Origin: a virus
Virus record (IMG/VR): IMGVR_UViG_3300008107_000014
Span: 51,208-115,207 of that record
Direction: 5' to 3' (one strand)
DNA: 64,000 nt
Shown: positions 9,162-61,311 of the stretch, piece by piece
How the letters are laid out: every line of letters starts with the position of its first letter
Numbering within the stretch: the stretch's first letter is position 1
Position numbers and translations under genes: made by a program
The notes under the pieces: model-generated
Seen by the model: the letters and a program-made list of their open reading frames with translations, nothing else
Databases searched by the model: none
What the model was told of the DNA's origin: nothing

Positions 9162-9613
9162 GAAACTTCTGCTTTACCTGGGGCAATTTTCTTAACGTCA
9201 ACATATCCTGCCCCACGGCGATCCATGCTAACACCTTCCTCTTGTCCAATGTCTCCGCACAATGCACGGAACCATCGATCTGCAATTTCTTCATCTGGAT
9301 CACCATCATAGCCATATCCTTGCAACTTCAATTGTACAATAAACTCATCGTTCCAATCAAGCTCAAAGAATCCATTACGTAGATTGTCTTTGTTAACATG
9401 TGTGTCAAGTACAGCTACCCACGGCTCGCCCTTTTGTGTAGCACGTTCTTTAGGAGTTAACTTAGCTTCTGCTGCTTTTGCTTCAGCTGCAATTGCTTCT
9501 TCTAAATGCTGTTTAGCAATACTCTTTGCAGTCTCTGCTTCTGCTAGTGCGTTTTGTGTTGCATCTTCTAATGCTTGTAAGCCTGTAATCTTTTTAAAGA
9601 ATTGTTTAATCAT
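9158..9613 (-). CDS. Conserved phage protein with alanine-rich coiled coil
   Basis: A 151-residue protein. The ATG at 9613 overlaps the queE stop as TAATG, which decides the start over an upstream GTG. Residues about 15-60 form an Ala/Glu-rich helix (AEAETAKSIAKQHLEEAIAAEAKAAEAKL). The C-terminal half (GEPWVAVLDTHVNKDNLRNGFFELDWNDEFI) matches a domain conserved in cyanophages and pelagiphages. Function unknown. Confidence 0.6.
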   Translation of the reverse strand: MIKQFFKKITGLQALEDATQNALAEAETAKSIAKQHLEEAIAAEAKAAEAKLTPKERATQKGEPWVAVLDTHVNKDNLRNGFFELDWNDEFIVQLKLQGYGYDGDPDEEIADRWFRALCGDIGQEEGVSMDRRGAGYVDVKKIAPGKAEVS

Positions 9614-10467
9614 TAAGTTCCCCACTCATTTTTAAATAACGGTACTTGTAGTCTGTCGCTATAACGTAAACCGTTTTTCATTGCTAGTAATGCTACATTC
9701 TTATTGTTTAATGCGTAGACACTTTCAACACCACCTACCGGCATTAGATAAACATGTCCTTTAAAGCCTGCTTTGCGATATGCGGCAATAGCACATTCGG
9801 CATCGGTAAAATCTTGTTCTGTGGCAATAACAAATTTCAAATATGCTGTACCGAAATTTTCGTATTCACAAACTACTTCTGGAAGAATTGCTTCTTCCCA
9901 TTTCTCTCCACTACATGGTAGTTTAGCACTTACGCTAAATGTAACTTCTCTAGCAAAATCCATGTTAGGCATTTGCCATTCTACCAGATATTCTTTAAAC
10001 TCTTCTGTTAGCTTTTGAGTGCCATTTGTTTCAAATGTAATCTCTTTCAAGCCTGACATCTTAGGGTGACTCAACAAGTCTGGATAAGCACGTTGCCAAC
10101 CCAGCAATGGTTCACCGCCTGTGATAACAAGATGCTCGTCCTTCCAATGATCTTGCGGAAGTATTTCCATAATTCGATCTACGATAGCATCACTTGTAAG
10201 CATTGGACTAAGATCCTTAAAACTAGGATGCCAGCTAGCATAGCTATCACACCCCGTAGAAACCAAAGGTAGTTCTTCATATTTGTTATATAGATATGCA
10301 ACTTCTGCAATATCTTCAGCTTCGTTGCTTAATTCACCACGACTCATGCCAAAACCTGCACATTTAAAGTTACAACCAAATGTGCGTAAAAACACAGAAG
10401 GCACACCCATGTAGCGACCTTCACCTTGAATGCTGTAAAACAGCTCTGCGATTTTAATTTTACTCAT
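9613..10467 (-). CDS. queE: 7-carboxy-7-deazaguanine synthase (QueE), radical SAM
   Basis: A 284-residue radical SAM enzyme that converts 6-carboxytetrahydropterin to 7-carboxy-7-deazaguanine in the preQ0 pathway. The family start SIQGEGRYMG and the SAM-binding LVITGGEPLL are clear. The iron-sulfur cysteines are unusual: Cys32-x3-Cys36, but the third is Cys73 in TGCDSYASWH, 36 residues later, whereas most QueE proteins have CX3CX2C or CX14CX2C. The insertion looks like a phage variant rather than a defect, because the CDS-x-x-x-W context is kept. With FolE, QueD and DpdA in this window it points to 7-deazaguanine in phage DNA. Confidence 0.9.
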   Translation of the reverse strand: MSKIKIAELFYSIQGEGRYMGVPSVFLRTFGCNFKCAGFGMSRGELSNEAEDIAEVAYLYNKYEELPLVSTGCDSYASWHPSFKDLSPMLTSDAIVDRIMEILPQDHWKDEHLVITGGEPLLGWQRAYPDLLSHPKMSGLKEITFETNGTQKLTEEFKEYLVEWQMPNMDFAREVTFSVSAKLPCSGEKWEEAILPEVVCEYENFGTAYLKFVIATEQDFTDAECAIAAYRKAGFKGHVYLMPVGGVESVYALNNKNVALLAMKNGLRYSDRLQVPLFKNEWGT

Positions 10468-10472
10468 ACGTT

Positions 10473-10501
10473 ATTATACACTCTTTTTTGTTAAAGTCCA
10501 A
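10473..10501 (-). promoter_or_regulatory. Sigma70-type promoter TTGGAC-17-TATAAT before queE
   Basis: The minus strand has TTGGAC (10496-10501), a 17-base spacer and TATAAT (10473-10478). The -10 ends only five bases before the queE ATG, so a transcript would be nearly leaderless. It lies in the end of the AbrB-like gene. Moderate match. Confidence 0.4.
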
Positions 10502-10647
10502 GAGCCATCCTTGTTATCTGTCCAAACAAGTGTATCTCCTTCTTTCCAACCTGCTTGTTCTAATAGCTCAGGCGGAAATGTTATTATTGCATCGCCGGTA
10601 TCTGGATCTTCCTCAACCGGTACAGTCCATTTAGATAAGTTGTTCAA
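10474..10647 (-). CDS. AbrB/MazE-like (SpoVT fold) small DNA-binding protein
   Basis: A 57-residue protein starting with TTG at 10647. It is preceded by AGGAG six bases upstream and by an in-frame stop, so the TTG is the only reasonable start. The sequence SKWTVPVEEDPDTGDAIITF, PPELLEQAGWKEGDTLVW and a final GSWTLTKK is the swapped-hairpin AbrB pattern, as in MazE antitoxins and transition-state regulators. I recognise similar proteins in cyanophages. It overlaps the deaminase gene end by 17 bases and ends 7 bases before queE. No toxin partner is visible, so a DNA-binding regulator is the better inference. Confidence 0.75.
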   Translation of the reverse strand: MNNLSKWTVPVEEDPDTGDAIITFPPELLEQAGWKEGDTLVWTDNKDGSWTLTKKSV

Positions 10648-11092
10648 CAGTTACTCCTGATTTTTCCAGAAACGTGATACCACTGGTATCCCTATAAGTG
10701 TTCCGATATAAAACACTGCTAATACCACTTTGGTAGATAAGTTTGGCACAGTCCAAACATGGAGCATGGGTAATAAACATAGTAGCACCCAAACCAGATT
10801 CGTTAGATTTAGCCAGTTTGGCAATCGCATTTGTTTCAGCATGTAATACCTCGGGTCTAGTTTTTAACTCACCGGTGTTGACTAACTTACTGCCAACACC
10901 GTATTCGGTTTGAAATTCTGTTACTTCATATTCACAGTTATTATCCCAACCTGCTGGCATACCATTGTAGCCAATAGAGATAATCCTATCATCTTTGGCT
11001 ACGATTGCACCTACATGCAATCGCCGAGCATGACTAAGCTCTGCAAATGTCTCCGCAGTTTTCATGTATGCTTGTTTTAATTTTTGTTTCAT
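10631..11092 (-). CDS. cd: dCMP/cytidine deaminase
   Basis: A 153-residue zinc-dependent deaminase. The signature is HAE at residues 84-86 and PCLDC (Cys112 and Cys115), giving the His/Cys/Cys zinc site with catalytic Glu86. dCMP deaminase makes dUMP, the substrate of thymidylate synthase, as in T4 (gene cd). Length and N-terminal motif (HVGAIVAKD, GYNGMPAG) fit the deoxycytidylate deaminase group. It overlaps its neighbours on both sides. Confidence 0.9.
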   Translation of the reverse strand: MKQKLKQAYMKTAETFAELSHARRLHVGAIVAKDDRIISIGYNGMPAGWDNNCEYEVTEFQTEYGVGSKLVNTGELKTRPEVLHAETNAIAKLAKSNESGLGATMFITHAPCLDCAKLIYQSGISSVLYRNTYRDTSGITFLEKSGVTVEQLI

Positions 11093-11277
11093 TCGGGTAG
11101 GCTTGTAAAGCGTTGTTCAAAACTTTCTATATAGCAACTATATTCTCTAGGCTCAAGAACTTTGTCATCTCGATAATGAACCCATGTATGTCCATCAACT
11201 TCAACTACATGGATTACAATAAATTTTTTATCAGTGCCTGAACCCCAACGACTTCCTGGTAAAATTTCTTTCTTCAT
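11089..11277 (-). CDS. Small conserved phage protein, unknown function
   Basis: A 62-residue protein starting at the ATG that overlaps the upstream stop as ATGA (11277). A GTG four codons earlier is less likely. The pattern ILPGSRWGSG...FIVIHVVEVDGHTWVHYR looks like a small beta-barrel protein of the DUF1653/DUF4222 kind found in phages. No activity can be assigned. Confidence 0.55.
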   Translation of the reverse strand: MKKEILPGSRWGSGTDKKFIVIHVVEVDGHTWVHYRDDKVLEPREYSCYIESFEQRFTSLPE

Positions 11278-11807
11278 TTTGTCCACCACTCCTCATAAGG
11301 AAATTCAATCCAAACATCTTCTTCGGCTTTGTTTACTTCCATGCCCCAATAATTCATTGGAGCTTTACATTTACTAGATAGATTATCTACAATAACTGCA
11401 AATCGAACATTGTTATTCCAAATTTCTTCCCATCGTTCGTCATTTGGAAAACAACCACTCGGCCAGTCTTCCATAATCCAGTTTAGTGTACTACCTTGAT
11501 CATTGATATCGTCTACAATAAGGATATTTTTTCTACCATCACCTGATGACATTGGGTCGTGATTGATATACCCAAACGCATCTTCTGCCATACCTAGATT
11601 ACTAACGCATTCGCCTCCGTCACGCAGACTAACGTCTAATGATTGCATGGGTACATTTAAGTAATGACTAATCATAACAGCAGGTAGTAGCCCGCCTCTA
11701 GTTAATCCCACAACATAATCAGGTTTCCAGTTGCTTAATGCAATATCTCTACAAATCTTATTGACTAGACCTTTAAAGTCGTCATTGTTAATTACTAACT
11801 TTTTCAT
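11274..11807 (-). CDS. Type I phosphoribosyltransferase
   Basis: A 177-residue protein. The PRPP-binding motif ILIVDDINDQGST (about residue 95-107) and an N-terminal VVGLTRGGLLPAV loop are clear. This places it in the purine phosphoribosyltransferase superfamily. Family members move a phosphoribosyl group from PRPP to a base. The substrate cannot be read from sequence. In this position, among deazaguanine and nucleotide genes, base salvage is possible but unproven. Confidence 0.8.
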   Translation of the reverse strand: MKKLVINNDDFKGLVNKICRDIALSNWKPDYVVGLTRGGLLPAVMISHYLNVPMQSLDVSLRDGGECVSNLGMAEDAFGYINHDPMSSGDGRKNILIVDDINDQGSTLNWIMEDWPSGCFPNDERWEEIWNNNVRFAVIVDNLSSKCKAPMNYWGMEVNKAEEDVWIEFPYEEWWTK

Positions 11808-12252
11808 ATCTTTCCTTAAGGTACTGCTCGTGTTGCACCCACTTATTATTAACTAAAAATCCCCATTCTCTTTTTTGAGGACCCGGCATAAACAAAGTCC
11901 AAGCAGTTATTCCAGGAACCAATTCGATACGATGATAGCTGTGAGAACTGCATAAGCGGAAGTGACCAGGACCACGCCAATGCTTTGTTTCTCCAACCAT
12001 TTTGCCATATTCGAAATTAGGAGTGTATTCATAGTAACCACCTTTGAGTATTAGTGTAGCATACGGCCACGGATGATCATGAACATCATCTGGGTCGCCC
12101 TTTAAAAACTTATGTAGGAATATATTAAATGGAAATGTTTTCCTATCTTTTAGAAACAAGTAATAGCGTTCAAGATACGGCTCGTCGCATTGACGATCCA
12201 TAACAATACGCTTACGACCTAGCCGATCTAAAAGATTAAGAAACCATTTCAT
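11788..12252 (-). CDS. Cupin-like protein
   Basis: A 154-residue protein with a probable cupin metal site: VHDHPWPYATLILKGGYYEY (about residues 55-75) and a later SSHSYHRIEL. Such small cupins occur in marine T4-like phages beside folE and the phosphoribosyltransferase. The reaction is unknown. Cupins range from sugar isomerases to dioxygenases, and no choice can be made. It overlaps the preceding gene by four bases. Confidence 0.6.
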   Translation of the reverse strand: MKWFLNLLDRLGRKRIVMDRQCDEPYLERYYLFLKDRKTFPFNIFLHKFLKGDPDDVHDHPWPYATLILKGGYYEYTPNFEYGKMVGETKHWRGPGHFRLCSSHSYHRIELVPGITAWTLFMPGPQKREWGFLVNNKWVQHEQYLKERYEKVSN

Positions 12253-12467
12253 TCTACATCCTCACTAAACCACTCGTCTACCATATCCTCGGCTTCGTCT
12301 TGTGTTAATGCAGGAACAAATAACCTTGCTGGTTGTCCTACAGTATGTTGAATATTAAAACGAACAATGCCAGTTGGAATTTGATCAAAGTCTCTTTCTA
12401 CAATAAATTCTTGAAGATTCTTTGCACGATAGATTAAATGATCTGTTAGGTCTTTAGCTGTTGTCAT
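12249..12467 (-). CDS. Small acidic conserved phage protein
   Basis: A 72-residue protein. It begins with a helix (TAKDLTDHLIYRAKNLQEFI), followed by a beta-rich middle (GIVRFNIQHTVGQPARLFV) and an acidic tail. It overlaps folE upstream and the cupin gene downstream as ATGA, so it is translated as part of this operon. I do not recognise a function. Confidence 0.55.
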   Translation of the reverse strand: MTTAKDLTDHLIYRAKNLQEFIVERDFDQIPTGIVRFNIQHTVGQPARLFVPALTQDEAEDMVDEWFSEDVE

Positions 12468-13162
12468 CTTGGGGCAAACTCCTGTTGTAGTTTAATGTTG
12501 TCAAAGAATTCCTTCTTTGTATGAGGATCATTTTTAAATGTTCCTTTTAATACTGTAGTCTGTGTTAGACTGCTATGTGCCATGATGCCGCGATTTTCAC
12601 AGCAACCGTGTGTTGCTTGAATGTAAACTGCTACGTTCTCTGAGTCAGTAGCTCGGCTAATCTCGCGGGCGATGTCGTTACAAAGTTCCTCCTGGAGAGT
12701 ACCCCGTCTTGCACACCACTGTGCGATTCTTGTGTACTTGCTAAGTCCGATAAGTTTTTCGGCAGCAATAATACCAATATAAGCAACGCCAGCCACAGGT
12801 TGGTGATGATGACTGCACATACTACGCAGCTCACTACGAACAACCAACATGCCTTCATAACGGTCTTGCGAGTCATTTGGAAACGCTGTTGCATCTGGGG
12901 CTGCTTCATATCTACCTGCCATTATTTCGTTAAAGTACATTTTAGCAAGTCTACGTGCTGTGCCCTTGCTGTTGGGATCGTTTTCACGATCAATAAGGAG
13001 TGCGTCGAGAACGCCTTCGAATGCTACTGTTGCTTCTTCAATAAGATAGTTTTTATCAAACTCATCTTTAACGTATTCGCTGATATTGTCACCAGCCCAA
13101 AAACGTTTGTTATCTCTTTTCATGTTTTCGCGGATAACTTGCGATAGATTTTTTTCTGACAT
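12464..13162 (-). CDS. folE: GTP cyclohydrolase I (FolE)
   Basis: A 232-residue GTP cyclohydrolase I, converting GTP to dihydroneopterin triphosphate, the first step to folate and to 7-deazaguanines. The zinc ligands are Cys116 and His119 (MCSHHHQP) and a Cys in THGCCENRG (187/188). The segment GLSKYTRIAQWCARRGTLQEEL is typical. It starts after a GGAGAA ribosome site. The best explanation for its presence is supply of the preQ0 pathway with QueD and QueE. Confidence 0.92.
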   Translation of the reverse strand: MSEKNLSQVIRENMKRDNKRFWAGDNISEYVKDEFDKNYLIEEATVAFEGVLDALLIDRENDPNSKGTARRLAKMYFNEIMAGRYEAAPDATAFPNDSQDRYEGMLVVRSELRSMCSHHHQPVAGVAYIGIIAAEKLIGLSKYTRIAQWCARRGTLQEELCNDIAREISRATDSENVAVYIQATHGCCENRGIMAHSSLTQTTVLKGTFKNDPHTKKEFFDNIKLQQEFAPR

Positions 13163-13198
13163 ATTTTCTCCGAGTTAATGTCGAGGATGACTTAGTAG

Positions 13199-14293
13199 TT
13201 ATTTTAAGTTGTCTAGTAGTCGACTACAACTGAAAAAGTTCTCTCTTAAAACATCTACCTGTTTATTTAGGCTAGGTAGACGAGATTTATAATTTTCCAT
13301 GTGTGTGACAATTTCTCTACACACGTCCGGACGATACTTGTTATATGAGTTCCAGCTTTCTGTCCACTCACTAGGATACTTAAACACATCCATGGCCATT
13401 TCGCTGTAGCTTAATCTATCCGGAACCATTGGGATTGCATCTACGATTGCACCTTCATACCAGCTAATACCTAAGGTCTCTTGTAAGTTTGCGCTGAACA
13501 CTAACTTAGCTTCGCCTAATAAATTGTGATATTCACGTTTAGTTAATTGCTGTTCTTGACAGATGACAAATTCGTATTGCGGTAAATGTTCTTTTAGGTC
13601 ACGGAAAATTTCAACTTGTTTTTCTGGGGCAATGCGATGTGGAAATAAAATAAGATCACGTTTTTCCATGCCTTTATACATAGACAACGTATCTTCCATG
13701 TATTCCATAGGCCATCCTGTGCGTACTACTTTATTATTGAACACAGTATCTTCTATCACAGTCTTATACATTGTTTGTCTACGATCTGGATCTGCTTGGA
13801 TCAAGTTTTTGTAAAACATATGAATGTGAAAGTCAGTGGCAAAGTAGTTGTGATCAAACGCATAATAGAAACTCTTCTCAGCATGTCTAACCCAAGGTTT
13901 ATCTCCTACAAGCCGTCCTAGGAAGTCTTGAGGATCATAACTGCCCGCATGCCATAGACCGTGAGTAGTTACTGGAATACTCAATAACTCACTCATGTAC
14001 TTTAAGTTTATAATACCTGGATGCCAAGCATCAGTAAAAATAAAGTGATCGCCGGGATGAACGGCTCCGCTACAAAATAAACGGCCCATCTGCTCAACTT
14101 GACTAGCCTTGTATATATTAGTGCCGCCAAAGTTAAGAAACGCTCCCGGAGTGGTAGCACTAGGAATGTCCGTAGGACCTGATATAACGTTGACATTGTG
14201 TCCCGCCTTTCGTAAGAGTGCAGGCAAGTGGGTTTTCCACTCGCCTGTGTACCTTGTTTCAACTGCTTCTAAATCAACAAGGTATATCGACAT
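13199..14293 (-). CDS. Glycosyltransferase, GT-B fold (family 4-like)
   Basis: A 364-residue protein starting at the ATG of the TAATG overlap with the preceding gene (14293), where MSIYLVDLEAVETRYTGEWK begins the fold. The C-terminal half shows typical GT4 features: RDLILFPHRIAPEKQ (about 210-225), then LGEAKLVFSANLQETLGISWYEGAIV, where the ETLG and EG residues contact the nucleotide sugar. Cyanophages carry similar proteins. Its target may be phage DNA, a virion protein or a surface glycan; sequence alone does not decide. Confidence 0.75.
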   Translation of the reverse strand: MSIYLVDLEAVETRYTGEWKTHLPALLRKAGHNVNVISGPTDIPSATTPGAFLNFGGTNIYKASQVEQMGRLFCSGAVHPGDHFIFTDAWHPGIINLKYMSELLSIPVTTHGLWHAGSYDPQDFLGRLVGDKPWVRHAEKSFYYAFDHNYFATDFHIHMFYKNLIQADPDRRQTMYKTVIEDTVFNNKVVRTGWPMEYMEDTLSMYKGMEKRDLILFPHRIAPEKQVEIFRDLKEHLPQYEFVICQEQQLTKREYHNLLGEAKLVFSANLQETLGISWYEGAIVDAIPMVPDRLSYSEMAMDVFKYPSEWTESWNSYNKYRPDVCREIVTHMENYKSRLPSLNKQVDVLRENFFSCSRLLDNLK

Positions 14294-14523
14294 TATGAAC
14301 GTGTCCGATAGTGTTGCTGTCCTCGAGGTTTCCACTCCTTTCGTTCGCCATTACGATCATTACGATCGAAGTGTCGACGAGGGCGTTTAGATGCCTCGTA
14401 AGATTGCCAAACTTTACTCTGGCGGTTATACAAATCTGCCGGATTATAAGGCAGAAGTTCTAATCTGCAAAAATCCAACAGGGCGTCGAGATCGTTAAAA
14501 ATCTTCTCAACTTCAGTTTTCAT
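14293..14523 (-). CDS. Small basic protein with Arg-rich tail
   Basis: A 76-residue protein. An acidic helix at the N-terminus (MKTEVEKIFNDLDALLDFCRLEL) is followed by a strongly basic end (SKRPRRHFDRNDRNGERKEW). The basic tail suggests nucleic-acid binding. It overlaps the glycosyltransferase start as TAATG. I do not know the family function. Confidence 0.5.
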   Translation of the reverse strand: MKTEVEKIFNDLDALLDFCRLELLPYNPADLYNRQSKVWQSYEASKRPRRHFDRNDRNGERKEWKPRGQQHYRTRS

Positions 14524-14538
14524 CGGTAGTTCCTTTAA

Positions 14539-14928
14539 TTAGTATTTGATGAATGAACCATTTTCTCCGTCTTCGGAGACCTCAATCCAAATCTCTCGAC
14601 CTGGATACTTATTGGAAATGCTGTCATATAAATCACCTGACATCATTTCACAACTCTTGTAATCTAGTTGTAGTGTACCTTCTTTGTAAAGGTTTTCCAA
14701 CCAGCGTTTAAATTGAATAAATTCAATATCGCGATCATCGTGTGTAACACTAATCCATACTTTGAAATGGAATGTGTGACGATGCGGATAACCTAGAAAA
14801 CTTACATCATATTCGTCGCCTGTAGCAAGATTAGGATCTGTAAGTGCTGCTGGATATTTGTGAATACCTTCTTTTTGCAAGGTAACCCAAATCATTTTGT
14901 TAGGACGAGTGTCTTGTCTAATAATCAT
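14539..14928 (-). CDS. T-fold protein resembling 6-pyruvoyl-tetrahydropterin synthase
   Basis: A 129-residue protein; the ATGA overlap at 14928 decides the start. The segment LGYPHRHTFHFKVWISVTH (residues 45-63; His49, His51, His54) resembles the His-rich zinc site and beta strand of QueD/PTPS. EFIQFKRWL fits the following helix. KSCEMMSGDLYDSISNKYPGREIWIEVSEDG fits the end, with the pterin-binding Glu. Residues are not fully conserved, so it may be a divergent or non-catalytic paralogue. Its neighbours are FolE, QueE and DpdA. The assignment is by eye and needs profile confirmation. Confidence 0.45.
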   Translation of the reverse strand: MIIRQDTRPNKMIWVTLQKEGIHKYPAALTDPNLATGDEYDVSFLGYPHRHTFHFKVWISVTHDDRDIEFIQFKRWLENLYKEGTLQLDYKSCEMMSGDLYDSISNKYPGREIWIEVSEDGENGSFIKY

Positions 14929-15152
14929 GATGCCAACAAACCCTTGCAAAGTTCTCCAATTTCTTCTTTAGTCATAAAGAAGTTATATGTACTTGCATGT
15001 TCTACGTTTCCGTCTTTATCAAGACATTCTTGAATAAAGTCGAGATTGTATAATCCTTTGGGACTAATTACTTCCCAAGTTTCTACACGCACTCTAAATG
15101 CACCATTATCTTTAATGGTAAAATTGTTAATTTTTAAACTTTCATGTAACAT
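14925..15152 (-). CDS. Small conserved phage protein, unknown function
   Basis: A 75-residue protein with beta-rich N-terminal half (FRVRVETWEVISPKGLYNLDFIQECLDKDGN) and a C-terminal helix (MTKEEIGELCKGLL). It overlaps the T-fold gene by four bases. Similar short proteins occur in cyanophages; no function is known to me. Confidence 0.5.
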   Translation of the reverse strand: MLHESLKINNFTIKDNGAFRVRVETWEVISPKGLYNLDFIQECLDKDGNVEHASTYNFFMTKEEIGELCKGLLAS

Positions 15153-15454
15153 TATCGTAATCCTTCCACTGTAATAATTTTGCTTAGTTCTTCGCCTAAG
15201 TCTTTATCATCCATTATAACATAAATTGCATTCTTATGTCTATCGTTTACGTTATCGTATTTGTTCAATTCAATAATAGTTCCACCAGTTGCCTTGTGTA
15301 CTTTAAAATTAAATCCGTGATTGTCTATAGTACGTTCACTGCTCATAGAGATGCCTTTGCTAAGTCTAGGTCGATTTACATGGATATCTTCTTCACGAAT
15401 TTTATCCCAGTCTTCGCGAACCCAGCGGACAATGATTTTTTTAAACCAGTTCAT
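15152..15454 (-). CDS. Small conserved phage protein, unknown function
   Basis: A 100-residue protein. The ATG at 15454 is chosen over a TTG three codons upstream. The first 35 residues are basic (WFKKIIVRWVREDWDKIRE). The rest contains FNFKVHKATGGTIIELNKYD and a DDKDLGEEL helix. I recognise the central GGTIIEL segment from cyanophage conserved proteins, but not its role. Confidence 0.5.
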   Translation of the reverse strand: MNWFKKIIVRWVREDWDKIREEDIHVNRPRLSKGISMSSERTIDNHGFNFKVHKATGGTIIELNKYDNVNDRHKNAIYVIMDDKDLGEELSKIITVEGLR

Positions 15455-15989
15455 TTTCTTCAATACTCCATAGTTTTCCTTCAGATGATTCTTCTACATC
15501 AAACAGGCTGTTAAATTCATTGATCTGCATAGTTCGAATATCTAATCCCCACTTATGAAAAACTTTGTCTGCTAAAAACGAGTGTGAATATTGTTCAGAC
15601 GGTATTCCAAAAGGACAGTTTCCACTATTTGCGGCAGAATATGGTTGTTCTAATTCACATTTAGTAATCAATAAATTTGATGATGTTATTATGTTGTTAA
15701 TTGTGGTTAGTAATTCTTCTTCGGGAATTTTAAACATTTCGGTCTGTGATGAAATGTTATTGAGGTATTTGCCAGATTTATATATCAGGGCTTGTTTAAT
15801 CTTTGATTCCAATCTGCCTATATCTCTAGGTGCTCCGAAATAAACATGATTAAGACTAAACTCCTTAGAACAAAACTTTTGTCTAGCTCTAACAGCAGAA
15901 TACGGCGTCATAGCTACTCCAATCTTTTTCCAATTAGAGTCTCCGTTTAAATCGTCGTGTATGTAAAAGAAAAAACTTTTTTCGTTCAT
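15441..15989 (-). CDS. Protein with GIY-YIG/T5orf172-like domain (tentative)
   Basis: A 182-residue protein. The pattern WKKIGVAMTPYSAVRARQ, then VYFGAPRDIGRLESKIKQAL (E at about 65), then TEMFKIPEEELLTTINNII resembles the T5orf172/MUG113 branch of the GIY-YIG nuclease fold (K-I-G, Arg, Glu, TE-x-F). If correct it could be a nuclease or a degenerate relative. The N-terminal YIHDD segment would be the weak first motif. It overlaps the next gene by 14 bases. The reading is tentative. Confidence 0.4.
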   Translation of the reverse strand: MNEKSFFFYIHDDLNGDSNWKKIGVAMTPYSAVRARQKFCSKEFSLNHVYFGAPRDIGRLESKIKQALIYKSGKYLNNISSQTEMFKIPEEELLTTINNIITSSNLLITKCELEQPYSAANSGNCPFGIPSEQYSHSFLADKVFHKWGLDIRTMQINEFNSLFDVEESSEGKLWSIEENELV

Positions 15990-16537
15990 TTTAAAATCTC
16001 GTCCTTTCTATATTTGTCCCAGCTTGTAAACTTATCTCGTCCGAGCAAGTCGTGTAGGTTGTGACACCATACACCGGGATTAGTTGCATTAAAATCTTTG
16101 TCGTCTAACTTAATTGTAGCATTATACCCTAGCTGTTGCAAATAGGGTAGCTTTACTGAAATTTGCGGAATGAACTGTTGCTTCTCTACAAGTCCGCTTT
16201 CTAACAATCCTTCAACATCTCTCACGTCAAGATCTAATGTACACCAGTATCCTGCTTCAAGACAAACGTATATCATATCTTCCCACGGACGCCATGTGTC
16301 TACATCGTTAGTTCCATTAGGTTTAAAACTTTGATTAGCGCCAAAGTAGATATGTTTAATTTTTTTAGATTCGTCTACATATGACTTTGTATCATCAGCA
16401 ATATGCAATATTGTATACGGATCGTGAACGCCTACAACAAACAGTGTTTCCATTCCGTATGCAGGCGTAGTTTCAATTTCCTTACCTGTGAAGAAGGTAA
16501 TAGATTCGGCTTTGCCGGTATTATAATCTCGTTTCAT
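15986..16537 (-). CDS. Conserved phage protein, unknown function
   Basis: A 183-residue protein with ETLFVVGVHDPYTILHIADD, IYFGANQSFKP and YWCTLDLDVRDVEGLLESGL. I recognise it as a conserved protein in T4-like cyanophages, near the queuosine-like genes, without a known role. It overlaps the small Cys-rich gene as ATGA. The beta-rich pattern suggests a globular cytoplasmic protein. Confidence 0.55.
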   Translation of the reverse strand: MKRDYNTGKAESITFFTGKEIETTPAYGMETLFVVGVHDPYTILHIADDTKSYVDESKKIKHIYFGANQSFKPNGTNDVDTWRPWEDMIYVCLEAGYWCTLDLDVRDVEGLLESGLVEKQQFIPQISVKLPYLQQLGYNATIKLDDKDFNATNPGVWCHNLHDLLGRDKFTSWDKYRKDEILK

Positions 16538-16704
16538 TTTGTCTTTCTAAAAAGATTTTTAATTGATTGAACTAGATTGTAATATCTAGCTTTATACGGA
16601 TCGCCAATAATTAAATCAATCATTGGCGGGTGGAGTGGACAGCGACCTTGTTTAAAGTCGCAGTCCGGAGTGTACTGCTTATTACAAACGGTACAATGTT
16701 TCAT
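16534..16704 (-). CDS. Small Cys-rich putative zinc-binding protein
   Basis: A 56-residue protein that begins MKHCTVCNKQYTPDCDF and continues RCPLHPPM. Cys4, Cys7, Cys15 and Cys22 (with a nearby His) could bind zinc, followed by a basic helix ending NLFRKTK. It fills the gap between dpdA and the 16537 gene, with two bases to the former and an ATGA overlap with the latter. This supports it as a real gene. A role with DpdA is possible but only from adjacency. Confidence 0.65.
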   Translation of the reverse strand: MKHCTVCNKQYTPDCDFKQGRCPLHPPMIDLIIGDPYKARYYNLVQSIKNLFRKTK

Positions 16705-16706
16705 AG

Positions 16707-18263
16707 TTAGTCACTGTTAAGTTGTTGTTCTAGTTTACGAAGGTCGTCGTCATCTTGTTGATCAAAAATCGGTTGTCCGTCTTTATCGTATTGCAATTGT
16801 TTGTGTCCATCAACTATAAACAAACTATTAAATTCGTTATCAGCAGGACCGCCTTGTAGTCTAGCACCTTCTAATGCTTTTAAGAAACCTTTGGCATTAA
16901 AAATAAGTTGAAACGCTTCGTCTTTGGTTTTAGTATTAAACAATTCTTCAATGAATGTTGCAAAGTAAAGAATCTTACGAGGTACCCAATCACTGTATTC
17001 AGTTTCTTTCTTACCTTCTAGACTCCACATGCGCCAATCTGGTTTGTACTTAGCACACTCAATGTCCATGTATTGCTGGGCACGTTGTACTGCCTTAATA
17101 TGACACTCAACATTATGACCCATCATTAATGCATAAGCAAAACTATCCCAACTAGTTTTACCTTCTTTTTTAATTTTGTTTAACATGCCTGGTGCATAGT
17201 AACATACATCGCCCATTGCTAATCTACTGCCAACTTCACTTTCGAATGGGAACGGTATATCGGAGCCTGAAAGAGCCTTGGTATCTGGCGCTTTGTCCAT
17301 GATAACTGACCATCGTTTGTTTGTGTGTTGAGCGTTTGTGTAGACAAGTCCATGTGCCGTTGCAATGAACGGTGAGGCGCAATCAAAAGAGATGGTAAGT
17401 TCTTCATTAATGTGCTTTCGTATTTGACGTTGAATTAAAGTTAAGTAGCAAGACCAATCTAATTGAGCAGTGCCCAAGAAGTGGATCCAATTTTTGCCTT
17501 TCAGCAAACCGTCTTCACGCATCGTCATTAGACGTCTAAGCGTAATATCCATTTTACACATGTTAGCACCACCAAAGGCCCAACCTTCTGCGGCTTTATC
17601 ACCCCAGACTTTTTCATCGCTAAATTCTTTAACACCGTTGTACCACGTCTCCGCAGTTTCCCAGTTACTACCTTGTAGCACGTTTAAGAACTTAGTAGTT
17701 TTACCGTCTCGGTTCTCTAAAAAGAACTTATTGTTAAATTTAGTTTTATTCAAACAATCGTCAAAATCTTTTAATCCTGTCTTAGGCGCATGGATGTGAT
17801 CGCAGGCCCAAGTAGGAACGTCTAACATCATTGACCAGTCTGCGGTAAGTTCAAGCCAACGAAGAATGTCTAAGCGTGTTTTGTTTGCACTAGGACCATC
17901 AAAGTTCAGCCAGTCAAACTTAAGAACACCTTTACCAATCTGATACCCACCTGAATCTCCAACAATAACAGTATTGTCTCTGTCACGTTGTTGAATCATT
18001 GCCTCTTGAATAACACTTTTTTCAAGATTAAGTTGTGCATGACCTGCTGAGTACAGACCGTATTTGTATGTAAAGTATCCTTGTTCGGGATTTAAAAAGT
18101 TCATGCCTTCAATGCCTCTATCAAATCCGTCGGGGATTCGATCCGCAGCAATAAATTCTTCTACACGTTGCTTTGCAATGTATGTGCTATAAAAAGAACT
18201 GATAGCTGGCAAGTATACTGCGTAGTCTTTCTGTAATGGTGATAAGTTAACTGGTGGTTTCAT
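16707..18263 (-). CDS. dpdA: DpdA-like DNA 7-deazaguanine transglycosylase
   Basis: A 518-residue protein with the tRNA-guanine transglycosylase (TGT) superfamily pattern. GDSGGYQIGKG contains the general acid/base Asp103. MLDVPTWACD lies at 146-155. LNVLQGSNW and WAFGGANM match the substrate-binding loops. SFDCASPF contains the probable nucleophile Asp294. The CxCx2C zinc site of bacterial TGT is not evident. DpdA enzymes swap guanine in DNA for preQ0 or a derivative, protecting phage DNA from restriction. With queE, folE and queD in the same window, this assignment is much more likely than tRNA modification. Confidence 0.82.
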   Translation of the reverse strand: MKPPVNLSPLQKDYAVYLPAISSFYSTYIAKQRVEEFIAADRIPDGFDRGIEGMNFLNPEQGYFTYKYGLYSAGHAQLNLEKSVIQEAMIQQRDRDNTVIVGDSGGYQIGKGVLKFDWLNFDGPSANKTRLDILRWLELTADWSMMLDVPTWACDHIHAPKTGLKDFDDCLNKTKFNNKFFLENRDGKTTKFLNVLQGSNWETAETWYNGVKEFSDEKVWGDKAAEGWAFGGANMCKMDITLRRLMTMREDGLLKGKNWIHFLGTAQLDWSCYLTLIQRQIRKHINEELTISFDCASPFIATAHGLVYTNAQHTNKRWSVIMDKAPDTKALSGSDIPFPFESEVGSRLAMGDVCYYAPGMLNKIKKEGKTSWDSFAYALMMGHNVECHIKAVQRAQQYMDIECAKYKPDWRMWSLEGKKETEYSDWVPRKILYFATFIEELFNTKTKDEAFQLIFNAKGFLKALEGARLQGGPADNEFNSLFIVDGHKQLQYDKDGQPIFDQQDDDDLRKLEQQLNSD

Positions 18264-19435: not shown

Positions 19436-20176
19436 TTAGACAGCTTGTGCTGGAATAATATATTTGTAAGTTGCTAAACCGCTATCTAATGTAATTTGAA
19501 TAGCACCTTCATTTGACAAACTCATCTTTGTATTATTAGCATCGGCATTGCTTAGGATGCTCATGATCGGAGCAACCGGCCATGTCCAGCCGCGATCTAA
19601 TTTACCTGCAACATTTGATGCAAATACAAACTCACCACCGTGTGTGCTAGCATCACCAAAGATAAACTTTAAATTGCCGCTGTCGGTCTTAGCCAAGAAT
19701 GTTGGCTGTTCATTATTAGCACCAGCTTGGAATTTAAAACGCTTGACTGCTTCAACAGTTGGCTCAACTTCAACATCCCACTTGACGCCACGGAACTTAA
19801 CAGTCTTCATCTTTTCGTTGATGATTTCTGTGTTCATAAAGCGATAATCATTTTTAAAATCGCTGTCTTTGTTTTCAAAGTGCAATCCTGTTGGAACAGT
19901 TGCTCCGTTGCGTTCTGCTGTAGTAACAGCAATTTTAGCATCGTCTTTGTAGACATCGCCGTCTAACAAATATTTCAATTTGTTAAGCTGTGGCATACCA
20001 AATACACCTAGCATCTGTGGATATGGATTAGCAGTCTCTGCTTCCATAATAACAGAACGATTGTCTGCCATTGCATTTAATACAGTCTTTTCGTCTGTAC
20101 CAGTTACTTTAACTGTAGTAAGCAATCCGCCAATATCATGTGTGTGGCGAACGATGTCTTGTAAAATATCTTTCAT
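19436..20176 (-). CDS. 45: Sliding clamp, DNA polymerase accessory protein gp45
   Basis: A 246-residue clamp. T4 gp45 is a homotrimeric ring (228 residues) that tethers the polymerase to DNA and also activates late transcription. The N-terminus (DILQDIVRHTHDIGGLLTTVKVTGTDEKTVLNAM), a central PQLNKLKYLLDGDVY and the C-terminal IQITLDSGLATYKYIIPA are characteristic of cyanophage/pelagiphage gp45. It starts after GGAGAATTCTC and lies 60 bases downstream of gp43-type sequence, with its own promoter region. Confidence 0.93.
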   Translation of the reverse strand: MKDILQDIVRHTHDIGGLLTTVKVTGTDEKTVLNAMADNRSVIMEAETANPYPQMLGVFGMPQLNKLKYLLDGDVYKDDAKIAVTTAERNGATVPTGLHFENKDSDFKNDYRFMNTEIINEKMKTVKFRGVKWDVEVEPTVEAVKRFKFQAGANNEQPTFLAKTDSGNLKFIFGDASTHGGEFVFASNVAGKLDRGWTWPVAPIMSILSNADANNTKMSLSNEGAIQITLDSGLATYKYIIPAQAV

Positions 20177-20236: not shown

Positions 20237-22903
20237 TTACTCAAAATCAAACAATTTTCCGAATGTGTTGTCACTGCGAGTTGAGCTGATGTCCCATTCC
20301 AAGACACCGATCAAGTTTTCTAGCTTTTCGTCGATAACTGCATTTTCCATATCAGCATCGTTAAAAGGCATGTCCTTAAACCACTGAGGTAATCTAAGTT
20401 CATCTACAGGATACGCTACACTAGTATACCCCATTGGATTGTCTTTAATTTTACAAACAATTACTTTTGCACCGTCTGTAATATTCATTGAATACTTGTC
20501 ATCCATCATACGCTTTAAAGTATTCCAATTCAAACTAGCACGGACATGTCCGGGCATATTTGTTTTTCCTGCTTTCTTTTCTTTGTTAGCGTATTCTGTA
20601 ATGTTGTTAGCACGTTTAGGACTACCTTTCTCCCAACCAGGTCTTGTTTTAAACTCAGTTCGAAAATTAGTAATGTATTCAAGCACATCTTCTTGGGTAC
20701 CATTATTTAGGACCATAGTTAGTACTTCACTTAAAAAGTCTTGAATAACAACAGGCGTATCACTACGCTTAAGGTCTAAGCCCATGGCCTTAATCTTACC
20801 AGGCTTGCCGTCTACGTCTGCTCGTTTGCCTTCCTTGTCATAGTAAAGTACTGCATATCGTTTCTTCGTGATGAACAGTCCGCGACTTGCAACAATTTCA
20901 CGACCAGCTTTAATAACTTCGCCACGTGACTTTGGACAATGAAATGCGTCTTGCATAAATTTAGGAAACGTATCGTTGACTTCTTCACCAATTTGATCAT
21001 AGAGTTGAACAACACTTTCTTTGGTCCACGGCAATCGTCCAGCATCGATTTCTTTTCTTAATGTTGGATATGCTGTAAAGTAACATGAGTCAGTGTCACC
21101 GTAGATAATTGCTTTACCAATATGATTATTTTCACCAGTAACAATTTCGTTGACTTTTCCTGCCATATGTTGTGCAATTGCACGACCTGTTAGTGTAGTT
21201 GATTGTCCGATTCGGTTATCAAAAAATCTACAACCAGGGTTAAGAATAGCACCATACAAACTGTTAAGCAAAATCTTTTTAACTAGCTGACGTTTATCCC
21301 AGTATTCTTCTTCAATCTTATTGCCTGCTTTAATACAGTCTTTAAGTTTAGCCTGCATCTCTTTACGTTCGGCATACCAACGCTTTAGTAATCCAGGAAT
21401 AATGCCTTCAATTTCGTAGGTAAAGATTGTGCCGTTGGCACTTAGCATCCAAGGTTGATTGCTGTCAAAGATTAAATCATATACCTGTGCCGCAGACAAC
21501 GTATCGCTGCCTCCGTTTGCCCAATCAATGGTTAACTCACGTCCTACCTCTTTGGCCATGACACTTGTGTATTCTACTGCACCAAACATTCCTTCCCATG
21601 CAGCCGCAAAACTTTTACCTTTTGCAATCTCTGCATCGATATATGCCTTGGTTCCGTCTTGACGTAACTGTCCAATAATAGTTTCTGGACCCATGTTCAA
21701 TGCACGAATTGCTGAGGGATACAGTGAGTTAATGTCAAGTGACCCAATCCATTCGTGAATGCCCTTCTTTGGATATGCAACATACGCACCTGCCGCAGGT
21801 TCACTACCTGGCTCACGTTGTATACGGTTAGGAACAATCATTCCTCGGCGATGTGCCTCGTTAATAATAGCCTGTTCGGTTACAGCTACAGCACCCATTG
21901 TCGTTGCCAACAGCACTGTGTTTTCATGAGCAATGGTATTTGCAAGGTCTAAGAATTTTAATTTTTTATCTAGCTTGTCTAACAGCAATGTATCTTGCCT
22001 GTTGTATTCAATAAACTTACGGAAGTCTTCGTTATACAACTGATCTAGTGTACCTTCGTAGACTGTCTTTGTATCGCCAATTTCCATTTCTGCAATAGCA
22101 TCAAGTCGATAAGTGTGACGTTCTTCATAGGTATACTTACGGTACAGTTCTAAGCTATCTAAGTGTACACGCCCAATAAAGTCATAGGTAACAGCAGCTT
22201 TACCATATTTTTCATATTCTCGTTTCTTTGGAAATTGATTCCATAGACAAAATCTGCGTGTGTCGTCTTTGCTTAGTACTTTAATGACACGATTAACAGT
22301 GTAGGGAATATCAAAGCCTTCACTGTTCCAGCCACTTAATACATCCGCATCGTCAATTAAGTTTAAAAATGTATCGAGCATTTCTGCTTCGTTGTCAAAC
22401 AAAAATGTATTAGGAAAGTCTTTAACTGATTCTTTGGCCTGCACCATTGAAATAGTCTTTGGCGGTATTGCCAAGGTGATTAAACTATCAAGCCATTGTA
22501 AGTATACTGTGATAGCTGTAATTGGCATGAATGCATCGTCTGGTGCCGCATAGCCGCGTTCTGGATCAAAGTCTACTTCGATGTCAAAGAAACAAACGTT
22601 TAGTTTTGGAGCATCAACATTTAAATAGTTTTCTTCAAAACAACGGAATACAGGTTTAATGTCTGATTCGTATAGTTTCTTACCGCTATAAGCTCTTAGT
22701 TCTTTGTGGAGGTCTTTAAGGTTTCTGCAATTAACTCGTGTTAACGGTTCGCCGAAAATTGATTTGTGTTTTCCTCTTGAATCTTGATAATAAAAGAGGT
22801 GTTTTGCGGGGTATTCTTTATAGTGACGTTGCCCTTTTTCGTCACGCTCAACAACGTTGATAATATCATTATCGCGGTCGTAGAAAGCATCTACGTAGCT
22901 CAT
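20237..22903 (-). CDS. 43: DNA polymerase, family B (T4 gp43)
   Basis: An 888-residue replicative polymerase with exonuclease, close to T4 gp43 (898). Exo I is FFDIEVDF (Asp107, Glu109), Exo II SGWNSEGFDIPY and Exo III YNRQDTLLLDKL. Polymerase motif A is DINSLYPSAIR (about 388), motif B KILLNSLYGA (about 546), and motif C YGDTDS (about 600). The C-terminal end FGKLFDFE fits the clamp-binding peptide, matching gp45 next door. It starts after AGGAGAATACA. Confidence 0.97.
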   Translation of the reverse strand: MSYVDAFYDRDNDIINVVERDEKGQRHYKEYPAKHLFYYQDSRGKHKSIFGEPLTRVNCRNLKDLHKELRAYSGKKLYESDIKPVFRCFEENYLNVDAPKLNVCFFDIEVDFDPERGYAAPDDAFMPITAITVYLQWLDSLITLAIPPKTISMVQAKESVKDFPNTFLFDNEAEMLDTFLNLIDDADVLSGWNSEGFDIPYTVNRVIKVLSKDDTRRFCLWNQFPKKREYEKYGKAAVTYDFIGRVHLDSLELYRKYTYEERHTYRLDAIAEMEIGDTKTVYEGTLDQLYNEDFRKFIEYNRQDTLLLDKLDKKLKFLDLANTIAHENTVLLATTMGAVAVTEQAIINEAHRRGMIVPNRIQREPGSEPAAGAYVAYPKKGIHEWIGSLDINSLYPSAIRALNMGPETIIGQLRQDGTKAYIDAEIAKGKSFAAAWEGMFGAVEYTSVMAKEVGRELTIDWANGGSDTLSAAQVYDLIFDSNQPWMLSANGTIFTYEIEGIIPGLLKRWYAERKEMQAKLKDCIKAGNKIEEEYWDKRQLVKKILLNSLYGAILNPGCRFFDNRIGQSTTLTGRAIAQHMAGKVNEIVTGENNHIGKAIIYGDTDSCYFTAYPTLRKEIDAGRLPWTKESVVQLYDQIGEEVNDTFPKFMQDAFHCPKSRGEVIKAGREIVASRGLFITKKRYAVLYYDKEGKRADVDGKPGKIKAMGLDLKRSDTPVVIQDFLSEVLTMVLNNGTQEDVLEYITNFRTEFKTRPGWEKGSPKRANNITEYANKEKKAGKTNMPGHVRASLNWNTLKRMMDDKYSMNITDGAKVIVCKIKDNPMGYTSVAYPVDELRLPQWFKDMPFNDADMENAVIDEKLENLIGVLEWDISSTRSDNTFGKLFDFE

Positions 22904-24822: not shown

Positions 24823-25611
24823 TTATTTATTATAATTTGAAAGGTATCTGTATAACTCTTTCTTAATCTTATTCCAAGACCCTTCCTTGCTAGTTTTAAG
24901 AAATCGCCCATAATATTCAAGAGCATTCCAAAGAACGTTTAAGTTAGGAACTTGTATGATTTTACTACCAACAACCGCATAATCTTGTCTTTGCGCCTGT
25001 TTAAGAATATTGTCAATTAATCCAATGCCCTTATCCCCCACAGCATTGTGTATGTCGTTGGCTATCTGCGCTACCCAAGCATCTCTTTCCATGTTATTCA
25101 GCATATAGATGTAATACTTGTCGCGTTCGTTGTGTGCCACAGGTGGCTGCTTTTTCCAAACATCTGTTTCGATGTCGTAAACACTATCATCGTCTGTTGC
25201 TTTTTTAATTTGACTTGTTCGCTGACTAGCGTGTGCAAATTCATGCACCATAATAGAACTTAATCTATCAATAAAATTCTTAGCAGTCTTTTCGTCTGTT
25301 GGTGCATGTGCTACATTTACTTCAACTGTAACAGTATGCTCTATTGGAATGCCGCTGATTTCGTGTTCTGCGTTAATAACAGAGTAGGCAACATCCGGAC
25401 GATCAAGCATCTTATGTTTAATTGACAGCTTGCGATCGATGTGTTGTTCTTTCCATGCTGCTAGTTCTCTACTGGCATTTAAATTCTTAAAGAACTTGGT
25501 ATACCATTCGAGGTCGTTTTTATAGTTGCCAATTTTAGCAACCGCAGTGGCAATCCATGGGCGTATCCATGATGTTTCTGTGCGTTCTTTTAGTATTTCG
25601 TATGATCTCAT
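24823..25611 (-). CDS. Zinc metallopeptidase-like protein with capsid-targeting-like N-terminus
   Basis: A 262-residue protein that begins MRSYEILKER, a candidate capsid-targeting sequence with an L-x-E site after Glu9. A zincin motif HEFAH is at residues 123-127 (IMVHEFAHASQ), and the third ligand may be Glu176 in MERDAWV. No signal peptide is visible. If tagged, it would be packed in the head and could be delivered with the DNA. The substrate is unknown. It overlaps the hydrolase gene upstream by four bases. Confidence 0.6.
   Translation of the reverse strand: MRSYEILKERTETSWIRPWIATAVAKIGNYKNDLEWYTKFFKNLNASRELAAWKEQHIDRKLSIKHKMLDRPDVAYSVINAEHEISGIPIEHTVTVEVNVAHAPTDEKTAKNFIDRLSSIMVHEFAHASQRTSQIKKATDDDSVYDIETDVWKKQPPVAHNERDKYYIYMLNNMERDAWVAQIANDIHNAVGDKGIGLIDNILKQAQRQDYAVVGSKIIQVPNLNVLWNALEYYGRFLKTSKEGSWNKIKKELYRYLSNYNK
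24824..24831 (-). promoter_or_regulatory. Late T4-type promoter box AATAAATA
   Basis: AATAAATA on the minus strand, only six bases before the ATG at 24818, so the start would be near the transcript end. It overlaps a TATAAT without a -35. Confidence 0.4.
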
Positions 25612-26768
25612 TTCATTGCTACCTGGAACGCTCGTTGTTTTTCTTGTCGTTTGTCTAGATGTTTCATTCCCGGATTAATCGATTTGGTAACATCTTTGGT
25701 GTCTTTAAAGTTATCAACCCTGGGCGCAACTCGATTTTTCCAATACCATATTGCGGTTTGGGCAGCTATTTCTGGTTTCTCAACAAGTTCGGGATGTTTA
25801 GCCAACGGTAGCCCTAACGCTTGCCCGGCCCTTTCATAATTGTCTTTTCCAGTTAATTGAATGTAACCTCGACCTTTATATTTTTCGCCGTCGCCTACTT
25901 TGTCGTTGCCTAATTTTTTAGCTTTTTTAGGAGCATACTTAATATCGTACTTGCGAAAGTCTAGACTACCACCTAGTTCTTTAAGACTTTTAAAATCCAT
26001 AGTTTCATGAGCACACTGACTTAAAAATGCCACAAGCTCATTACCAGTGATGCCTGCTCTTATTGCGGCCTTTTTAAGAAACTCTTCATGCGGACTTCCA
26101 GTTACTGTATTAGCAGTATTGTCTTTGGGGGATTGATTAGAATTAACTTTTTGTTGAGGTTCTGTTTTTTGTTTAACATCTTGTTTCTTGGCAACGGGCA
26201 TTTCTTTAGCATTGTCTGGAACTTTAACCATCTGCCCCGGTTTTAGTTTGGTGTCTTTATTAAACTGATTTAACTGCATGACAAATTGCGGAGTTACATT
26301 ATTCTGTCTAGCAATAGAATAAACAGTATCACCGGGTTCAACTAGTTGTCGAACAATATTAGCATTTGCACCTAAAGAAGCAGCTCCTAATGCAGCTCCT
26401 GCAACCCAGTCTTTCCAATCTTCTTCTATATTTTCATTTTTTGCACGACCAGCTTTCATGTTGGCCAGCCAGTGTGCCATGCGAGCTTTTTCGCCTGTGC
26501 TGTTTTTAGCAGTTTTTCTTAGATCACTAACACTGGCTTTGGTATTGACACCGCTACGTTTAGCAAGTCCTTTACGTCCGGGCTTCTTTCCATCCGCAAA
26601 GTTTTCATGCTCGATGCTTTCGCCACTACCACCTTCACCACTATTACTAGAGTCTCCGCTATATCCAGCATAATATCCATATCCGCCGTAGGGACCTGGC
26701 CCGTAAGCAGCCCATCGAGATTTACGTTTGCGTTTTTTTGTTTCGCTAATAAACTCGTAGGCTCTCAT
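25608..26768 (-). CDS. LysM + GH19 cell-wall hydrolase with capsid-targeting-like N-terminus
   Basis: A 386-residue protein. It begins MRAYEFISETKKRKRK, close to T4 internal-protein tags (MKTYQEFIAE), with an I-x-E site after Glu9. A Gly/Tyr/Ser-rich linker follows. A LysM domain lies at about 141-185 (VEPGDTVYSIARQNNVTP...LKPGQMVKVP). A GH19 chitinase/lysozyme domain spans 225-386, with catalytic Glu255 in CAHET and GRGYIQLTGKDNY at 299-311. It is distinct from the lysis endolysin at 37196, so entry or head-packaged hydrolysis of peptidoglycan is plausible. The last point is inference. Confidence 0.75.
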   Translation of the reverse strand: MRAYEFISETKKRKRKSRWAAYGPGPYGGYGYYAGYSGDSSNSGEGGSGESIEHENFADGKKPGRKGLAKRSGVNTKASVSDLRKTAKNSTGEKARMAHWLANMKAGRAKNENIEEDWKDWVAGAALGAASLGANANIVRQLVEPGDTVYSIARQNNVTPQFVMQLNQFNKDTKLKPGQMVKVPDNAKEMPVAKKQDVKQKTEPQQKVNSNQSPKDNTANTVTGSPHEEFLKKAAIRAGITGNELVAFLSQCAHETMDFKSLKELGGSLDFRKYDIKYAPKKAKKLGNDKVGDGEKYKGRGYIQLTGKDNYERAGQALGLPLAKHPELVEKPEIAAQTAIWYWKNRVAPRVDNFKDTKDVTKSINPGMKHLDKRQEKQRAFQVAMK

Positions 26769-32907: not shown

Positions 32908-33401
32908 TATTTGGTCTTCCTTAATTTTTTCATAGCTAATTGTAACTTCATCTGCGACACTTTGTCTACAAAACAAATGCCATCTAAATGATCGTACTCG
33001 TGTTGGAAGCATCTAGCAAGATAGCCGTCTATCTTTACCTCGTGCAAATTACCTTTTGAATCTTGATATTGTGCAACAATCCAGTCCGGACGTTTGATAG
33101 TTAACCATAAGTCTGGATAACTTAAACACCCTTCTTTGAATAATGCTTGCTCAGTACTGTATTCTAAGATGTGTGGATTGAATACTGCAAACGGCTGCGG
33201 GAATCCCGGAACATTATCACTGCCGATTACAAATACTCGCTTGTTCAAGCCAAATTGATTAGCAGCAAGACCAACTCCATGATTTGCAACCATGAACTCG
33301 ATCATTTCTTTTTCAAGTAATTCTGCATCACCGTCTGTTTTAAAATCCCACGCTATACTCGGTGTAGTAAGCGTATCATGAACACCTAATTTAATTTCCA
33401 T
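32907..33401 (-). CDS. def: Peptide deformylase
   Basis: A 164-residue metallo-hydrolase that removes the formyl group from nascent proteins. The three family motifs are intact: GVGLAANQ (42-49), EGCLS (90-94, metal Cys) and HEYDH (134-138, catalytic Glu). Phage deformylases are known in T4-like cyanophages, where they may help maturation of highly expressed proteins. The ATG at 33401 overlaps the dnaJ end by 11 bases. Confidence 0.95.
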   Translation of the reverse strand: MEIKLGVHDTLTTPSIAWDFKTDGDAELLEKEMIEFMVANHGVGLAANQFGLNKRVFVIGSDNVPGFPQPFAVFNPHILEYSTEQALFKEGCLSYPDLWLTIKRPDWIVAQYQDSKGNLHEVKIDGYLARCFQHEYDHLDGICFVDKVSQMKLQLAMKKLRKTK

Positions 33402-57993: not shown

Positions 57994-58023
57994 GTTTCGT
58001 TCCAATAAATGTGGTTACTCTAA

Positions 58024-60744: not shown

Positions 60745-61311
60745 TTATGCCTCATAACTTGCGGAGTTAGCTTGGTGTTCAAATACTTCCACTGAACGAA
60801 GTTTAACACCCTTGCCTACAGGATAACGGCACTCAAACATTTTACCATTTTCTAAAGTGTAAGATTCTCCGCGTTGGAATGTTTCTAGAATATCTTTCAT
60901 TTTCATAAAAGCAGTTTCACTAAACTTTTCGCAACCAACCGCTTCTACAATACGTAGATCACATATTGCTCCACGTTCATGAGGGGCACCTTCAGGTCCT
61001 GTTCCAGTGCCGCTAGTAGGAGGATCTCCTAAATTGGCCATCTGTTTAAAGAAATTCAAATGTGGGTCATCTTCAGCAATTACCAAAGTATGATCGAACA
61101 TGTATTCGCTCCACTCTTTAAATGCTTTGAGTCCGCCAAAGTCCATGACCCAGTTACGATCGTCTAATGTTTCAGATTCAAATATTAATTTAATTCCGAT
61201 TGAATAGCCGTGTAGTGTTGAACAATGGCTGTGGCGACTACGCCATTGTCTAAAACAACAAGATAAACCCCTGTCGTTGCCGTACGTTTTTGTTGAAAGA
61301 TATTTTGCCAT
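60745..61311 (-). CDS. queD: 6-carboxytetrahydropterin synthase-like (QueD)
   Basis: A 188-residue T-fold protein. SRHSHCSTLHGYSIGIKL (about 25-42), WVMDFGGLKAFKEW (54-67) and FDHTLVIAEDDP (72-83) follow the QueD layout. The normal HGH is HGY here (His34, Tyr36), and the usual Cys-x-x-x-HGH start is shifted. The gene has an insertion with Gly/Pro residues around 95-110. QueD makes the substrate of QueE. It is separated from queE by 50 kb. The start follows AAGGAGACTAGAG. Confidence 0.8.
   Translation of the reverse strand: MAKYLSTKTYGNDRGLSCCFRQWRSRHSHCSTLHGYSIGIKLIFESETLDDRNWVMDFGGLKAFKEWSEYMFDHTLVIAEDDPHLNFFKQMANLGDPPTSGTGTGPEGAPHERGAICDLRIVEAVGCEKFSETAFMKMKDILETFQRGESYTLENGKMFECRYPVGKGVKLRSVEVFEHQANSASYEA

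Follow-up and report, generated by a model that had tools for sequence, protein, structure and literature searches.

Genes of the locus

The window examined here, that is the whole stretch of 64,000 nucleotides analysed, is the last 64 kb (positions 51,208 to 115,207) of the linear and probably partial IMG/VR virus record IMGVR_UViG_3300008107_000014 (115,207 bp). Its genes point to a genuine, systematically recurring variant of the 7-deazaguanine DNA-modification system known from phages, with predicted chemistry; the main ones are the following:

9613..10467, minus strand: QueE, 7-carboxy-7-deazaguanine synthase, a radical S-adenosylmethionine enzyme with C32, C36 and C73 (phrog_2076, 5.3e-50)
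12464..13162, minus strand: FolE, GTP cyclohydrolase I (PF01227, 2.2e-40)
13199..14335, minus strand: GT4-like glycosyltransferase with an E-x7-E motif (E286/E294), whose homologs match Glycos_transf_1
14539..14949, minus strand: small QueD-like T-fold enzyme of 136 aa, PHROG 17812, with H30, H56 and H58 (alignment, Foldseek)
16707..18263, minus strand: divergent, DpdA2-related putative guanine transglycosylase of the DpdA type, 518 aa, with D103 and D294 (AlphaFold2 model, Foldseek, hhalign)
60745..61311, minus strand: QueD, 6-carboxytetrahydropterin synthase (PF01242, 1.1e-12)

A first-pass annotation, made on the letters of the window, had described DNA modification by a 7-deazaguanine pathway that includes a DpdA-type enzyme and lacks QueC, and this description is supported by the gene set, the fold and the profile searches. 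FolE and QueD are recognized by PF01227 and PF01242, respectively, and the T-fold protein, which had been mentioned without coordinates and is most likely the product of 14539-14949, gives a model matching QueD. QueE is present as a member of PHROG 2076, but it had been placed within 10474-18263 and lies just outside that interval. The QueD of the window retains the catalytic Cys and is of the HGY variant that is common in phages.

The DpdA-type transglycosylase

No sequence match was obtained for the protein of 16707-18263 in Pfam, PHROGs, NCBIfam or the PDB; in particular, it is matched neither by PF01702 (TGT) nor by the DpdA2 profile PHROG 10773, which does match the proteins of Vibrio phage nt-1 and of ACP17. 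Its AlphaFold2 model, built from 49 sequences, has a predicted local distance difference test score (pLDDT) of 88.9 and a predicted template modelling score (pTM) of 0.88, and its nine best Foldseek matches in the PDB are all TGT, QTRT or DpdA structures, including DpdA 7ui4. In a viral library the same model matches the DpdA2 of nt-1, the TGT of Motura and a 259-aa protein of Cellulophaga phage phiST. The template modelling scores (TM-scores) to the PDB entries are moderate (0.3-0.5), and the likeness to TGT/DpdA is therefore stated as homology at the level of the modelled fold.

The first-pass annotation had pointed to Asp103 and Asp294 in a TGT-like protein; both residues are invariant in 153/153 unique relatives, and the DSGG motif is equally conserved save for one residue in one sequence. 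In the profile comparison with hhalign, D294 falls on D264, the nucleophile of E. coli TGT, and the family aligns with DpdA2 (E=3e-7 over 189 columns) and gives no match to DpdA1. The zinc motif CxCxxC, present in E. coli TGT, occurs in none of 49 family members. On the modelled fold and the profile alignment the window protein is placed in a divergent clade related to DpdA2, which is its closest named subfamily. The TGT fold, the two catalytic aspartates and the 7-deazaguanine synthesis genes alongside are the features by which a DpdA is recognized and are all seen here, and we infer that DNA rather than tRNA is the target of the enzyme.

A first scan of IMG/VR for this clade returned 480 contig stretches, every one encoding relatives, and broader scans gave at least 599 matches; scans with the transglycosylase of Paride or of 2.275.O alone found no relatives there. 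Among named phages, the clade comprises 11 Pseudomonas records (Paride, PA5oct, Callisto, MIJ3 and related phages) together with Sinorhizobium phage Phosso and Vibrio phage 2.275.O; in all of them the transglycosylase gene is annotated as hypothetical.

The QueC gap and the genes that accompany it

Gene content was compared in 22 records of the clade, comprising 19 from IMG/VR (including the window's own), the complete genomes of Paride (287 kb) and Phosso (469 kb, circular), and Vibrio phage 2.275.O. QueE occurs in 22/22 of these records and FolE in 20/22, while QueD is found in 15/22; in Paride and Phosso the three genes are all present together with the transglycosylase. The absence of QueC from the window, noted in the first-pass annotation together with a call to search the remaining sequence, holds for the entire record, in which PF06508 finds no match, whereas control genomes do match. 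By itself this absence is weak evidence, the record being linear and probably incomplete. QueC was also not found in the complete relatives Paride and Phosso, and a full QueC is present in only one of the 22 clade records, that of 2.275.O; for comparison, QueC matches occur in 319 phage records. The gap thus looks systematic across the clade and not like a local loss. QueA is absent from all 31 records examined.

The T-fold and glycosyltransferase genes beside dpdA track with the absence of QueC, and it is this recurrence of the gap across the group, with the two genes following it, that the first-pass annotation did not capture. Loci from IMG/VR were taken as eligible if they were non-redundant and had 5.5 kb or more of sequence downstream; both genes are found in 83 of 85 such loci. 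Across whole records, the two genes are present in 21/22 members of the clade, all without a full QueC; the one exception is 2.275.O, the phage with a full QueC, which keeps the order polymerase-clamp-DpdA-...-FolE-...-QueE and has QueF, YhhQ, QueC and an amidotransferase-like gene where the T-fold and glycosyltransferase genes would stand. The 21 records share ancestry and 2.275.O is one natural swap, so that these counts do not stand for separate events. Other lineages lend independent support, since in them the T-fold gene stands with other transglycosylase types and a clear QueC is absent: it accompanies DpdA2-type enzymes in ACP17, X1 and BUCT-ZZ01, a small TGT-like protein in D479, Ahp1, Bakedbeans and RHph_I1_18, and the 259-aa TGT-fold protein in phiST. 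A full QueC was found in 0/9 genomes of this kind, D479 and X1 giving weak partial matches.

The T-fold gene was found in 26 phage records. The model of the window protein (pLDDT 91.1) has the order beta-beta-alpha-alpha-beta-beta, and its best PDB matches by Foldseek are E. coli QueD. The invariant H30, H56 and H58 form a zinc-type His triad as in QueD, and the position of the QueD catalytic Cys, set by motif spacing and not by superposition, is taken by the invariant L52. The protein is proposed as a substitute for QueC, perhaps DpdL-like. An assignment to QueF or QueF-L was rejected, matches to QueD/PTPS ranking far higher in Foldseek; QueF itself is absent from the T-fold genomes save for one sub-threshold match in Bakedbeans, which coincides with the FolE gene of that phage. 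A division of one enzyme between the zinc-poor HGY-type QueD and the T-fold protein was likewise discarded, since relatives of this QueD are common in QueC-bearing phages without the T-fold gene. The T-fold domain forms part of fusion proteins with unrelated N-terminal regions in Chryseobacterium phage MA9V-3 (L238, 7464-8345) and Vibrio phage Bakedbeans (L234, 7212-8363).

The Glycos_transf_1 domain is detected above the cut-off in the X1 homolog of the glycosyltransferase and in the window member only through its homologs. In the window, as in Paride, Phosso, ACP17 and X1, the gene lies next to that of the T-fold protein or to dpdA, with reading frames often overlapping or abutting, and its sequence suggests the addition of a sugar to a putative acceptor. 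In Xanthomonas phage PhiXhv-12 (L239, 4911-8145), Gat-QueC, a PIG-L deacetylase and a distant homolog of this glycosyltransferase follow one another, an arrangement reminiscent, by analogy, of the N-acetylglucosamine transfer and deacetylation of the MshA/MshB type. The deazaguanine cluster of Synechococcus phage BUCT-ZZ01 (L237, 5388-9545) has two glycosyltransferases flanking the DpdA2-like and T-fold genes.

Other genes of the cluster and its surroundings are conserved to different extents:

11274..11807, minus strand: purine-type phosphoribosyltransferase near FolE (PF00156, 2.7e-11; weak match to xanthine phosphoribosyltransferase; 67% of eligible relatives)
11788..12252, minus strand: cupin or cysteine dioxygenase-like protein (phrog_4786, 1.6e-37; 60% of eligible relatives)
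15986..16537, minus strand: conserved 183-aa protein beside dpdA (91/100 eligible relatives)
19436..20176, minus strand: probable sliding clamp, a syntenic replication neighbour outside the pathway (98% of eligible relatives)
20237..22903, minus strand: DNA polymerase, syntenic neighbour (phrog_262, 2e-199)

A homolog of the 183-aa protein adjoins DpdA2 in ACP17, and the Phosso homolog of the clamp is annotated as DNA polymerase III sliding clamp beta. The phosphoribosyltransferase could, speculatively, salvage the guanine released by DpdA; XGPRT is present in the BUCT-ZZ01 deazaguanine cluster. A dCMP deaminase gene within the cluster (10631-11092) is kept in only 9% of eligible relatives. 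Elsewhere the window encodes a probable endolysin with LysM and class I chitinase domains (25608-26768), an AAA+ protein of 801 aa matching an ATP-dependent protease PHROG (30607-33012), a 2430-aa protein with tail fibre and baseplate matches (50713-58005) and a UvdE-type UV endonuclease (58662-59675; PF03851, 1e-39).

Proposed route, rival explanations and known systems

Sequence or structure shows which genes are present, how their products fold, which residues are conserved, which genes occur together and that a clear QueC is missing; as a whole, these features are best explained by a route that we consider fairly probable. FolE, QueD and QueE would turn GTP into 7-carboxy-7-deazaguanine (CDG), on which the T-fold enzyme (14539-14949) would act instead of QueC, most likely by decarboxylation to 7-deazaguanine. 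The transglycosylase (16707-18263) would then exchange guanine for 7-deazaguanine in phage DNA that is already complete; Asp294 is the predicted nucleophile and Asp103 the predicted general acid/base. The GT4 glycosyltransferase encoded nearby may add a sugar to the inserted base. The modification would probably serve to escape restriction and other DNA-targeting host defences; this role, like every reaction assigned to the T-fold protein and the glycosyltransferase, we infer from the features above. A wider and more tentative idea, which we hold as somewhat doubtful, is that glycosylated 7-deazaguanine occurs in the DNA of a large, mostly jumbo-type phage group, in which the T-fold and GT4 proteins would work independently of QueC with several transglycosylase types.

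Several points weigh against the decarboxylation route. QueD was not found in 7 of the 22 clade records, probably as these are fragments. Divergent PP-loop ATPases of the QueC superfamily, the source of partial QueC matches, are encoded outside the clusters in three clade records (G005, G007 and G017) and in D479, and their sequences therefore leave room for QueC activity in these phages. The phages phiST and RHph_I1_18 have the T-fold protein and no glycosyltransferase of the window family. Once decarboxylated, CDG would have no obvious handle to which a sugar could be attached, so that a decarboxylase and a base-directed glycosyltransferase fit together poorly. Finally, the identity of the T-fold protein (PHROG 17812) with DpdL is presumptive.

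The first-pass annotation had offered three accounts of the gap, with QueC lying elsewhere, QueC provided by the host or the carboxy form as the end product; each keeps some probability, although none of them explains the T-fold and glycosyltransferase genes. The last of these can be made more specific: DpdA would insert CDG itself, giving dCDG, the T-fold protein would play an accessory part, for instance by carrying CDG, and an ester may be formed on the carboxylate by the glycosyltransferase. The pathway ends at CDG by gene content, the carboxylate would offer the glycosyltransferase the handle that 7-deazaguanine lacks, and dCDG is reportedly a natural phage modification (Cui and colleagues, 2023); we nevertheless regard this as unlikely, because a near-invariant protein with a conserved His triad and acidic residues, enzyme-like in appearance, would be left with no reaction. 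Still less probable is that the host QueC turns phage-made CDG into preQ0, which the phage inserts as dPreQ0. Many bacterial hosts carry QueC, and in E. coli the 9g DpdA by itself is enough to give dPreQ0, drawn from the pool of the host (PMC6884629), but QueC-bearing hosts usually also have QueD and QueE, yet these phages encode both, and the absence of QueC coincides with the T-fold gene in unrelated phages with three transglycosylase types.

That the genes raise queuosine in host tRNA, with the TGT-like protein acting on tRNA, is suggested by the TGT fold and has been proposed before for phages with pathway genes and without DpdA (PMC6884629). We give it very little credence: QueC, QueF and QueA are absent from these genomes, save QueC and QueF of 2.275.O, the TGT zinc motif is lacking, the profile is nearer to DpdA2, and the gene adjoins those of DNA polymerase and clamp. 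A different question concerns one part of the decarboxylation route and can be answered either way while the remainder stands, namely whether the glycosyltransferase is a mere neighbour from a separate pathway acting on another DNA base, the capsule or the tail. The missing sugar handle on decarboxylated 7-deazaguanine and the phiST-type clusters without this gene give such an explanation appreciable weight, although we incline against it in view of the contact of the gene with the T-fold gene or dpdA in the window and in the four phages named above, and of its distant homolog near Gat-QueC and the PIG-L deacetylase in PhiXhv-12.

If the route from CDG to 7-deazaguanine is correct, it represents a QueC-independent branch for which a candidate enzyme is proposed here, and a glycosyltransferase acting on the base would make the product a sugar-bearing deazaguanine. 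Modified DNA is predicted for Paride, PA5oct and other well-studied phages of Pseudomonas, for which no statement of modified DNA was found in the literature examined, and isolated phages of laboratory hosts make these predictions testable. The standard profile libraries (Pfam, PHROGs, NCBIfam) miss the transglycosylase clade even though its genes are present in several hundred viral contigs or more.

Among known systems, Cui et al. (NAR, 2023) are said to have found dCDG and dDG in phage DNA and to have predicted a CDG decarboxylase, DpdL; that scheme shares with the window a pathway cut at CDG and an expected CDG-processing enzyme, and differs in that it is not known to include a glycosyltransferase. 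DpdA-dependent insertion of the base and protection from restriction were established by Hutinet et al. 2019 (PMC6884629), who also noted that phage Bipper misses QueC alone and might carry the QueC substrate. The DpdA2 phages Vibrio nt-1, Stenotrophomonas Moby and Pseudomonas pf16 have in common with the window FolE, QueD, QueE and a TGT-fold transglycosylase; in contrast, they keep QueC in the cluster and do not figure among the carriers of the T-fold or glycosyltransferase gene. The cluster of phiST (QueD-QueE-FolE-MazG-T-fold) has the same T-fold family and no QueC, whereas its transglycosylase of 259 aa belongs to another family, MazG and a kinase-like gene are present, and the glycosyltransferase of the window family is not. 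PhiXhv-12 resembles the window in the distant glycosyltransferase homolog near a deazaguanine gene, but it uses Gat-QueC and does not belong to the phages in which the T-fold gene was found. E. coli QueD, of the PTPS family, shares with the T-fold protein the fold and the zinc-type His triad, while the T-fold protein has an invariant Leu in place of the catalytic Cys, and most T-fold phages of the clade also possess a separate QueD.

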